Shown here piece after piece: positions 13,470 through 56,665 of a stretch of DNA of 56,665 bases. The stretch is taken from NCBI GenBank assembly GCA_001799995.1, contig MGUK01000006.1:1-56665 (forward strand), read 5' to 3'. The notes beneath the pieces were generated by a model. That model was given only the letters and a program-made list of their open reading frames with translations. It was not told where the DNA came from and did no database searches. How positions within the stretch are numbered: position 1 is the first letter of the stretch; each line of letters starts with the position of its first letter. The DNA comes from Elusimicrobia bacterium GWF2_62_30 (GTDB lineage: Bacteria; Elusimicrobiota; Elusimicrobia; Elusimicrobiales; UBA9959). Position numbers and translations under genes: made by a program.

Positions 13470-13602
13470 GCGTCCGCCGCGCGGAGAGGGTTATCAAAAC
13501 GCGGGTCTCGCACACCGTGCTCGCCCTCATCACTCAGCCTCGGCGCTTACGCAAGCCTCGGCTTCCGTGAAGGTTTTGCTAACCCTCTCCGCGCGTCGTC
13601 CG
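13470..13602. repeat. fold-back element, family 1, copy A
   Basis: A 112-bp core (13481-13592) bounded by inverted repeats: GCGGAGAGGGTTATCAAAAC on the left and its near-complement on the right (one mismatch). Outside the core the flanks also pair imperfectly (CGTCCGCCGC against GCGTCGTCCGCG). The interior, read in reverse, has the same plan as copy B at 39.9 kb, including a CACGGTGTG block. It sits between the convergent argS and pilin genes. Right after it, 13598-13631 repeats the end block CGGTGTGGCCTAGCGCGTTT, a second partial copy. Confidence 0.8.
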
Positions 13603-13683
13603 CGGTGTGGCCTAGCGCGTTTTGCGTTCCGGCCCCATCACGGCACACGCGCCGTCCTGTGCGACTTGAACAGGCAAATAAAA

Positions 13684-38700: not shown

Positions 38701-39750
38701 ATGGGCTTCCTCTACCGCAAACTGATACGCCGTATCCTTTTTAATTTCAATCCCGAGCTGGTGCATGACGCCGTCATTAAGGGCGCGCGCGCCGCGCAGG
38801 GCCTGGAGGTCGTAAACTCCCTGGTAGCCCTGCTGGCCCGGGCCAGAAATTTTCCCGTCACCACGGCCGGTTTGAAGTTCAGGAACCCGGTGGGGCTGGC
38901 GGCCGGCTTTGACAAGAACTGCGAGGCGGCGCGCATCCTGGCCGGGCTGGGCTTCGGCTACCTCGAGCTGGGCACGGTGACGCTGCGCCCGCAGCCGGGT
39001 AATCCCAAGCCGCGCGTGTTCCGCCTGCGCGAGAACAAGGCCATCATCAACCGGATGGGTTTTAACAATGTCGGGGCCTGGGACGCCGCGCGCTCCCTGG
39101 AAAAAATGCTGCCGCTCAGCATCCCCATAGGCATCAGCATCGGCAAGAACGCGGACTGTTCCATGGAGCAGGCGCCGCAGAATTACCTGGATGCCCTGAA
39201 GATCATGTACCCGTTCGGGGATTACTTCGCGATAAATATCAGCTCGCCCAACACTTTGCAGCTGCGGACGCTGCACGGCGAGGAAAAGCTGCGCCGCCTG
39301 GTGGAGCCTATGCTCTCCTTCGCGGCCGGGCAGAAGCAGGTAAAGCCCTTCTTCGTGAAAATGGCGCCGGACCTGGACGAAGCCGCTATCGATACCGTGG
39401 TAGAGCTGGCCGTGGCCATGGGTTTCGGGCTGATCACCACCAATACCACCATCAAGCGCGACGCGGTGCCGGAATACTGGCGCTCTTACGAGGGCGGGCT
39501 GAGCGGGCTGCCGCTGAAGGCTCCGTCCAACGCCGTGCTGGCGCGCGTGGTCTCCCTGGCCAAGGGCCGGGTGCCTATCATCGGCTCGGGCGGTATCTTC
39601 GACGGCGCGGGCGCGCTGGAGAAGCTGGAGCTGGGCGCCGACCTGGTGCAGCTTTATTCGGGCCTCATCTATGAAGGCCCGTTCCTCGTCAAAGAGATCC
39701 TCAAATACCTGGAACGCTCCAACTGGCGCTCCCCCTCCTCGGTGAAGTAA
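38701..39750 (+). CDS. pyrD: dihydroorotate dehydrogenase, class 2 (quinone-linked)
   Basis: Oxidises dihydroorotate to orotate, passing electrons to membrane quinone. 349 aa with the class 2 amphipathic N-terminal helices (LYRKLIRRILFNFNPELVHD) that dock on the membrane. FMN and substrate motifs: NPVGLAAGFDKN, LGTVTLRPQPGNPKPR, NRMGFNN and NISSPNT. Ser in the catalytic loop and C-terminal IIGSGGI with LVQLYSG are also present. It implies a quinone pool. Between it and pyrF lie 416 bp holding two fold-back elements. Confidence 0.96.
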   Translation: MGFLYRKLIRRILFNFNPELVHDAVIKGARAAQGLEVVNSLVALLARARNFPVTTAGLKFRNPVGLAAGFDKNCEAARILAGLGFGYLELGTVTLRPQPGNPKPRVFRLRENKAIINRMGFNNVGAWDAARSLEKMLPLSIPIGISIGKNADCSMEQAPQNYLDALKIMYPFGDYFAINISSPNTLQLRTLHGEEKLRRLVEPMLSFAAGQKQVKPFFVKMAPDLDEAAIDTVVELAVAMGFGLITTNTTIKRDAVPEYWRSYEGGLSGLPLKAPSNAVLARVVSLAKGRVPIIGSGGIFDGAGALEKLELGADLVQLYSGLIYEGPFLVKEILKYLERSNWRSPSSVK

Positions 39751-39782
39751 TAATAATCTTGCTTGCTTGATGTCGCGGGTTC

Positions 39783-39913
39783 GGGCCTGCCCGCCCGGGA
39801 CCTCTGCAAACCCGGAAGAGGAACCCCTTACGTGGGTTCCCCCCGCCTTTCGGAAATTATGGCGGGGCCCCCCTCCTGCAACGGGTTTGCCAAGGTCCCG
39901 GGCGGGCAGGCCC
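39783..39913. repeat. nested palindromic element (cloverleaf-like), family 2
   Basis: Arms of 32 bp (39783-39814 and 39882-39913) pair with about three mismatches in the middle. Inside are two perfect 7-bp hairpins: GGAACCC/GGGTTCC around 39820-39840 and CCCCGCC/GGCGGGG around 39841-39867. Folded, this gives one long stem carrying two side stem-loops. There is no T tract and no coding potential. It sits 23 bp before the family 1 element in the pyrD-pyrF spacer. No second copy was seen in the window. Confidence 0.75.
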
Positions 39914-39936
39914 TCCAGAGACTACTGCGCAAGCCT

Positions 39937-40068
39937 GCGTCCGTAGAGCGGAGAGGGTTAGCAAAACCTTCCGACGACCGAGCCTTGCGCAGCGGCGAGG
40001 GAGGAGGATGAGCGACGGCCACGGTGTGGCCTAGCGCGTTTTGATAACCCTCTCCGCTCTACGGACGC
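39937..40068. repeat. fold-back element, family 1, copy B
   Basis: The most perfect copy. The 24-bp arms 39937-39960 and 40045-40068 are exact reverse complements. Inside them CAAAAC/GTTTTG continues the pairing after one mismatch, making 30 of 31 pairs. The 110-bp core (39948-40057) matches copy A in layout and sequence at both ends. Its interior (39965-40044) closely matches, inverted, the segment at the window's right edge. It lies between pyrD and pyrF; the remaining 98 bp to pyrF show no clear promoter. Confidence 0.88.
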
Positions 40069-40166
40069 CGGATGGAGCGCGGTGGGCGTTCCGGTCACTG
40101 TGATAGGCCACTGCAAACCCGGTAGTTACTTCAACTATCCAAAACAGTTATAATTTCCGTATAACT

Positions 40167-40844
40167 ATGCATAAAACGGAACTGATAGTGGCTTTGGATA
40201 CGCCCAGCCTGGCTTCCGCGCGCGCCCTGATGGAAAAGATCGGCGGCGGCGTGAAATACTACAAAGTGGGCTCCGCCCTTTTTACCGCCGAGGGGCCAGC
40301 CGCGGTGGACCTGGTCCACAAGCACGGCGCCAAAGTGTTCCTCGACCTGAAGTTCCACGACATCCCAAACACCGTAAAGAGCGCCGTGAAGAACGCCGGC
40401 AAGATGGGCGTCTATTCCGTTTCCCTGCACCTCTCCGGCGGGGCGGACATGTTCAAGGCCTGCGCGGAGCTGGCGGACCGGCCAAAGCTCTGGGGCATAA
40501 CCGTGCTTACCAGCTTCAATGAATACACTCTTTTCCGGTCGGGCTTCCGCGGCGGCATAGACAAGACGGTGAAGCTGCTGGCCGCCATGGGCCTTGAGAA
40601 CGGCGCCGACGGCGTGGTCTGCTCGCCGCTGGAAGTGCACCGCCTAAAGGCCGTGCACGGCGCAAAGCTTAAGCTTATCACCCCCGGCATCAGGCCGGTG
40701 TCGCTGGGCGACGACCAGAAGCGCGCGGTCACCCCGGCCGAGGCCAGGAAGGCCGGCTCCGATTTTATCGTGGTGGGCAGGCCGATAATAGCGGCCGAAG
40801 ACCCTGCCGCGGCCGCGGCGGCGATACTTGAGGACCTGAAATGA
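40167..40844 (+). CDS. pyrF: orotidine 5'-phosphate decarboxylase
   Basis: Final step to UMP. 225 aa, class I OMP decarboxylase. Key motifs: IVALDTPSL at the N-terminus, the catalytic DLKFHDIPNTV (about residues 62-72, Asp-Lys-Asp array), GVVCSPLE, TPGIRPVS and VVGRPII phosphate-binding loops. Its stop overlaps the pyrE start by 4 nt (ATGA). Confidence 0.96.
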   Translation: MHKTELIVALDTPSLASARALMEKIGGGVKYYKVGSALFTAEGPAAVDLVHKHGAKVFLDLKFHDIPNTVKSAVKNAGKMGVYSVSLHLSGGADMFKACAELADRPKLWGITVLTSFNEYTLFRSGFRGGIDKTVKLLAAMGLENGADGVVCSPLEVHRLKAVHGAKLKLITPGIRPVSLGDDQKRAVTPAEARKAGSDFIVVGRPIIAAEDPAAAAAAILEDLK

Positions 40845-56542: not shown

Positions 56543-56583
56543 CTAGAGCCTGGGTGGCGGGGGCGCGAGCCGGGGGAGAGGAA

Positions 56584-56665
56584 CGCAAAACGCGCTAGGG
56601 CACACCGTGCCCGTCGCTCATCCTCCTCCTTCGCCGCTTACGCAAGGCTCAGTCGTCGGAAGGTT
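56584..56665. repeat. partial fold-back element, family 1, copy C (runs off window)
   Basis: In reverse it matches the interior of copy B (39965-40044) with few differences: CTTCCGACGAC, GAGCCTTGCG, GGAGGAGGATGAGCGACGG and CACGGTGTG blocks in order. It ends at GCGTTTTGCGTTCC, the same ending as the partial copy at 13.6 kb, rather than the GTTTTGATAACCC of copy B. The other terminal arm lies beyond the window edge. Confidence 0.8.

Follow-up and report, generated by a model that had tools for sequence, protein, structure and literature searches.

Correia, ERIC and RUP are bacterial MITEs of about 100-200 bp that fold back on themselves and are dispersed between genes. Nezha and others, which PMC3733652 names, are further bacterial MITEs, and the family described here is like MITEs in size range, in folding back and in intergenic dispersal. 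Unlike MITEs, however, it has no family-wide terminal inverted repeats, and no parent element was found. The other close relatives are the REP, BIME and REPIN repeats, which, in the sections of PMC3116915, PMC8266576 and PMC3686654 that describe them, share with our family a high copy number, an extragenic position, a palindromic structure, head-on doublets and classes that diversify between related genomes. TnpA-REP cleaves single-stranded REP hairpins with strand transfer in vitro, according to the experiments outlined in PMC8266576, and hairpin exchange by such an enzyme is therefore conceivable. In its passages on CGTC-tagged REPs, PMC3733652 reports such repeats without a dedicated transposase, some REPs inserted within palindromes, and a location mostly downstream of genes; our copies share the downstream location, but CGTC REPs are only 20-40 bp long.

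The differences from REP and REPIN repeats, as these are characterised in the same sections of PMC3116915, PMC8266576 and PMC3686654, lie in a unit of 110-170 nt whose stem opens at a three-way junction into two hairpins, and in a conserved interior combined with a variable outer stem. Furthermore, copies at shared chromosomal addresses differ in content and may be inverted, and, unlike in REP/RAYT systems, no copy was found beside the RAYT genes of its own genome. REPs are also recognised by a unit of 20-40 nt with an unpaired GTAG/CGTC foot tag, whereas here the units are several times longer and GTCGG plus CCTCC feet occur in 22/148 copies. The family is ordinary in habit; what is unusual is its anatomy, and that its addresses are shared between species although what they contain changes. 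Searches of the open-access literature for palindromic or miniature inverted-repeat families of Elusimicrobia showed no such family among the titles and abstract openings listed, and searches that combined REP elements with concerted evolution, or with gene conversion and orthology, gave no related paper.

Copies in the window and the fold of their core

The window, meaning the whole stretch of DNA that was analysed, is an entire contig (G000:C6, 1-56665), one of 99 that make up a draft genome of 2.91 Mb. It contains the following features:

13470..13603, plus strand: full copy 1 (folds; match to covariance model R1 at 13483-13592)
13478..13493, plus strand: 5' arm of copy 1, which pairs over 16 bp without mismatch with 13580-13595 (sequence, DNA fold)
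13495-13500 / 13573-13578, plus strand: inner CAAAAC/GTTTTG stem of copy 1 (folds)
13503-13526, plus strand: hairpin 1 of copy 1 (folds)
13530-13570, plus strand: hairpin 2 of copy 1 (folds)
13580..13595, plus strand: 3' arm of copy 1 (sequence, DNA fold)
13604..13636 (about), minus strand: remnant abutting copy 1, a portion of one half of a different copy (sequence; the same stretch matches other places in the genome)
39937..40068, minus strand: full copy 2, with perfect 24-bp arms (folds; R1 match at 39948-40055, minus strand)
39937..39960, minus strand: outer arm of copy 2, low-coordinate side (sequence, DNA fold)
40045..40068, minus strand: outer arm of copy 2, high-coordinate side (sequence, DNA fold)
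56574..56665 (start near 56574), plus strand: copy 3, cut by the contig end (R1 match)

A first-pass annotation had described fold-back copies at 13.5 and 39.9 kb with a partial third, and had given the 39.9-kb copy perfect 24-bp outer arms (39937-39960 / 40045-40068); arms, folds and R1 matches bear out both statements. Copy 1 lies directly after an arginyl-tRNA synthetase gene and carries GCGGAGAGGGTTA at 13481-13493 with its reverse complement at 13580-13592, and its stem, mismatches included, extends to 13470-13603. Copy 2 is flanked by dihydroorotate dehydrogenase and orotidine decarboxylase genes, and copy 3 adjoins a gene for a trypsin-like protease. What had looked like a second end type at 13.6 kb, GCGTTTTGCGTTCC, is part of the opposite-orientation remnant abutting copy 1, and the arm type to which this remnant end belongs, GGAACGCAAAAC, is common among family copies. 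Copy 2 has another inverted repeat next to it, formed by GTTTGCCAAGGTCCCGGGCGG and the reverse complement of that sequence (about 39784-39816 and 39884-39940), and by eye a similar sequence adjoins other copies in the same genome, for example at L018, L028 and L035.

Each copy folds into a Y shape, in which a long stem ends at a three-way junction from which two small hairpins branch; the small hairpins carry the CACACCGTG and GCTTACGCAAG motifs, and the folded unit measures 110-170 nt. When copies 1 and 2 were folded as RNA, z was -5.65 and -9.36, with 0/200 shuffles as low, and DNA folding of both strands of each gave z from -6.1 to -9.4 (0/200 shuffles each). Among six copies folded as RNA, four had z between -5.65 and -10.51 and one -3.09, while a last one, given without its 5' arm, had -0.24.

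For alignment A1, 128 copies were found, 85 were kept once weak, edge and near-identical ones had been dropped, and 79 were aligned, six with rearranged interiors being left out. Of its 1480 cells, 94.7% pair, and 15/19 core pairs show changes on both sides among the 79 sequences. Double-change cells numbered 200, compared with 57.7 +/- 5.5 in shuffles (0/500 as high), for a structure predicted from the same alignment, which is a bias in its favour. The pairing score of 0.348 fell to 0.024-0.075 when partners were slid by 1-3 columns; the number of pair types was not above shuffles (27 vs 26.3; 232/500 as high). The most conserved stretches are ACACCGTG and the GCTTACGCAAG region. The core fold is kept by strong compensatory change, in agreement with the earlier suggestion that structure is maintained. 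By eye, several copies, some of them in other species, have a core broken at varying points by small extra segments, often with GTCGCTTCGCTCCA (L052:1492-1623, L026:1101-1196, L269:6063-6189 and L300:12671-12798).

Such copies could be structured RNAs, terminators or 3'-end stabilisers that are selected site by site because the neighbouring genes need the hairpin. The folds are indeed very stable, yet only 13/1480 core cells are G-U or U-G, which speaks against this explanation.

Distribution, gene context and candidate enzymes

A 163-base query found 63 matches in the genome of the window, and R1, built from 79 copies, found 104 among 150 candidates scored in this 2.9-Mb genome, so the family is dispersed and present in both orientations, as first proposed. 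A chance segmental duplication of three copies was rejected on the basis of these matches. In a DNA search 33/61 genomes matched, namely this one, 31 others of its genus and one of another genus. The R1 search of the phylum, in which 15 candidates were scored per genome, so that per-genome copy counts are lower bounds, gave matches in 32/247 genomes: 16 belong to the genus and 13 to its sister genera within the family, while 3 lie outside the family and have 1-3 weak matches each. At least seven genomes of the same family had no R1 match among the 15 candidates scored in each. The named hosts of a core pattern (46 stretches) are Elusimicrobia/Elusimicrobiota assemblies or assemblies titled only 'bacterium'. 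The repeats are thus largely confined to a single family of Elusimicrobiota. Five G000 contigs (C1, C28, C38, C40 and C6) have copies some 200 bases or less from an end, so the repeat family probably breaks assemblies and its copy number is probably underestimated. Rfam 15 gave 0 matches in the window above gathering score and, at a permissive threshold around the 39.9-kb copy, five (four miRNA models and one VA RNA), all far below their gathering scores. The 39.9-kb copy had no match in plasmid and phage collections, and one 24-base pattern had none in viral contigs.

Out of 158 profile hits in three genomes, 156 entered the analysis of gene context and 148 the analyses of arms. With a hexamer-based gene caller, 155/156 copies lie outside called genes. 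The 140 copies with both neighbours called occupy 94 tandem, 38 convergent and 8 divergent gaps, whereas 58/231 gaps of at least 150 nt are divergent in a background drawn from just two genomes, G005 and G014, in which the gaps that hold copies are counted too. The median distance from a copy to a gene 3' end is 56.5 nt, and neighbouring copies closer than 300 bp are arranged head-on in 25/26 cases. This location between genes, mostly at gene 3' ends and often in head-on doublets, is a REP-like habit of the kind that PMC3733652 describes. In tandem contexts, 52 copies run with the gene direction and 42 against it, which is near random and argues against a strand-specific RNA role.

These data bear on the RNA or terminator explanation in both directions. 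The avoidance of divergent gaps and the proximity to gene 3' ends are what it would predict, but the use of both orientations in tandem contexts is not, and a scan of 39700-40200 for terminators, which finds loops of 3-8 bases only, returned no T-tract terminator. A functional need at each site would also leave unexplained the identical cores with different arms described below. We therefore consider a selected RNA function unlikely.

The first-pass annotation had proposed a MITE-like or REP-like non-autonomous family. The REP-like part of this proposal agrees with the copy number, intergenic location and doublets, whereas the arms are too copy-specific for a strict MITE. It also had us look for a REP-associated transposase or an IS with the same ends, and none could be linked to the family in its own genome. 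Y1 transposase (Y1_Tnp) genes occur in 19/32 genomes searched and in 18/20 of the genus; G003 and G015, drafts of 93% and 91% completeness, have no Y1_Tnp match, yet each holds at least 15 copies. The 3.3-3.5 kb fetched around each of the two Y1_Tnp (RAYT-type) genes of the window's genome (L056, L057) contained no copy. Other repeats, of the GGGTCTGACCCC and AGTATACTTAA types, were seen by eye near these genes, at L017 (C94) and L016 (C70); they are perhaps the own REPs of the two Y1 transposase genes. A single arm sequence gave 15 near-exact hits in the genome of the window, of which ten form 5 pairs spaced by roughly 100 bases and the other 5 stand alone, with no IS-sized pair that would mark an autonomous parent with GCGGAGAGGGTTA ends, though with arms this variable the test is a weak one. 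Hairpin cleavage by SbcCD as a trigger is unsupported; the SbcD cut-off was reached in 0/32 genomes, 18 of which had weak partial matches, in a search that detected SbcD in 13/14 named genomes and placed it above cut-off in 8.

Copy-specific arms

Terminal inverted repeats had initially been taken as common ends of the family, a claim that does not survive comparison of copies with the same core. In each of the seven identical-core groups listed (3 to 6 copies each) the distal left arms all differ, and in all seven a copy's own arms pair better than swapped arms, by a mean of 6.8 to 19.8 kcal/mol. For example, five G000 copies with a common 63-nt core have -64.3 kcal/mol with their own arms and -44.5 kcal/mol with swapped ones. 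Across 148 copies in three genomes, the median arm duplex is -51.2 kcal/mol for own arms vs -35.1 for swapped arms; the own partner beats all 147 others in 41/148 copies and is among the best five in 84/148. The distal arms are thus copy-specific, rather than terminal inverted repeats common to the family. Unchanged cores with wholly changed arms are not readily produced by gradual compensatory drift, and we read these data to mean that the arms are made or kept at each site.

Mismatches and short motifs in the arms are unevenly distributed. On the CACACCGTG strand, distal arms have 94 A-C vs 32 G-T mismatches (61 vs 24 in unique contexts). This excess is driven by the related genomes G005 (35:7) and G014 (36:7), and is hardly present in G000 (23:18). 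The complementary strand may be the one that folds, or mutation may be strand-biased; we build nothing on this bias. YGTC is found in 72/148 right arms vs 37/148 left arms, and is therefore enriched without being diagnostic.

Shared positions with different contents in related species

The comparison of orthologous sites covered roughly 0.79 Mb in G005 and 0.86 Mb in G014, in stretches mostly chosen around known copies. Both flanks could be mapped for 29/56 G005 copies (15 had no match, 10 were at edges and 2 were one-sided), with flank identity at mapped sites of 82-97%, typically near 92%. At 27/29 of these sites, a copy is present in G014. In the reverse direction, 30/47 G014 copies could be placed (9 lacked a match, 7 were one-sided and 1 lay at an edge), and 29/30 have a G005 copy; at the single unshared site G005 seems, by eye, to hold a degraded remnant (L279). 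In stretches that were not chosen around copies, 3/4 G005 and 2/2 G014 copies were shared, the two G014 copies at sites already among the G005 ones, so these numbers are small. As a control, 55 G005 gaps of 80-400 nt that hold no element were matched to their counterparts in G014; a copy is present in only 1/55 of the latter, and the remaining 54 have a median identity of 0.84. Copies of the window's own genome could be mapped onto G005/G014 stretches at 3 loci only, 1 of which was shared.

What occupies these shared positions is often different. Sixteen of the 27 shared sites have a single copy on each side, the 11 with neighbouring copies being left out, and among these sixteen the orientation is inverted at 7. 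Orthologous cores are 0.54-0.92 identical, and at 15/16 sites each of the two cores finds a better match elsewhere in its own genome than in its ortholog. At the sixteenth, this is true of the G014 core only; for the G005 core, none of the own-genome copies fetched is as close as the ortholog. By eye, swapped cores at orthologous sites fall in different subfamilies. At L259:6928 / L232:5159 arm identity is 0.89 and 0.85 and core identity 0.79, so that the same arms enclose another core. Thus, related species share positions while core, orientation and arms differ.

A closer pair of genomes, G002 and G010, has flank identities of 91-99%, mostly 93-96%. Here 11/18 G002 copies have a counterpart copy within the G010 stretches that were fetched, and 7 had no match within those stretches. 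Seven of the 11 pairs have the same orientation, 3 are inverted, and 1 was scored as inverted but is ambiguous, with two copies on different sides of the shared stretch; the arms of this pair were left unscored, as were those of two further pairs in which an arm is missing at a contig end. Both copies have a better core match inside their own genome in 8/11 pairs, and in 3/11 the cores are nearly unchanged (1.00, 0.99, 0.95). The arms of the remaining 8 pairs comprise 197 unchanged base pairs, 12 compensated doubles, 3 uncompensated doubles, 20 singles and 15 gaps. The stem of L317/L329 alone has five compensated double changes and three singles. At L315/L336 the core is identical and the right arm nearly the same in the two genomes, while the left arm is an exact complement of the right arm in G010 (-80.3), and not in G002 (-47.8). 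Such clustered, mirrored arm changes at the G002/G010 divergence suggest templating from one arm to the other, where we infer the direction of change.

Draft genomes were compared throughout and several copies sit at contig ends, so short-read metagenome assembly could in principle have swapped cores or orientations between copies. Chimeric joins, however, would destroy the pairing of arms, and arms from one locus pair far better than arms from different loci; the swapped cores moreover come, by eye, from different subfamilies. We regard an assembly artefact as highly improbable.

Transposition of the REP/RAYT or another type deserves more weight. Whole elements would excise and reinsert at preferred intergenic sites, orthologous gaps being refilled independently, by different subfamilies and in random orientation, and repeated insertion at hot spots would also produce shared addresses with different content. 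The head-on arrangement of close neighbours is that of REPINs, Y1_Tnp genes are widespread in the genus, a minority of copies has GTCGG and CCTCC feet, and some sites have no recognisable copy in relatives; the few sites without a copy in the relative had no alignable intergenic flanks. Yet the Y1_Tnp genes of the window's genome have other hairpins nearby and no family copy in the DNA fetched around them, and G003 and G015 carry the family with no Y1_Tnp match. In addition, the same arms around another core at L259/L232 require replacement inside the arms, and it is not evident why 27/29 sites should be hot while 54/55 gaps stay cold. On balance we think transposition a rather improbable account of these sites, although less so than a selected RNA.

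We instead favor, at about even confidence, a model in which REP-like palindromic repeats stay where they are, other copies supply the sequence that overwrites their cores, and hairpin templating repairs their arms. Old copies would keep their address, and a core would now and then be overwritten by the core of another copy, through ectopic gene conversion or single-stranded hairpin exchange; because the flanking arms are palindromic, the replacement could occur in either orientation. With the strand folded back on itself, a mutated arm would be repaired with its partner arm as the template (quasi-palindrome templating), so that arms would stay paired while their sequence drifts and becomes copy-specific. 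A new address would be gained now and then. We take the hairpin in DNA, and not an RNA function, to be what is maintained. We infer this whole mechanism from comparisons of one genome per species. The 3/11 nearly unchanged G002/G010 cores, together with the one G005 core of 16 that is closest to its ortholog, indicate that overwriting is not universal. Among the arm changes scored, uncompensated singles are more frequent than compensated doubles (20 vs 12), and the A-C mismatch bias hints at a strand-specific constraint or a mutation bias in G005 and G014; both points count against the model. In a stronger form of it, the repeats would be a class of fixed chromosomal addresses between which cores move by replacement in place, in either orientation, and each of which writes its own arms through hairpin templating, perhaps by means of a dedicated enzyme of the lineage; this form is more doubtful and we offer it tentatively.

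The family provides orthologous sites in species pairs at graded distances, so that one can measure how fast positions turn over relative to how fast cores are replaced, copies inverted and arms rewritten. If rewriting in place does occur, then a conserved position with compensatory change need not mean selection on an RNA, which is the usual inference. These sites also bear on the persistence of dispersed palindromic repeats for which no transposase is evident. At one further locus, L302:9178-9341, the G005 copy follows a stretch resembling a tRNA gene and G014 has, by eye, an unrelated long palindrome (GGGGACGCTGCTTCCTATCTTCCT) in its place; it looks as if one hairpin family had replaced another there.
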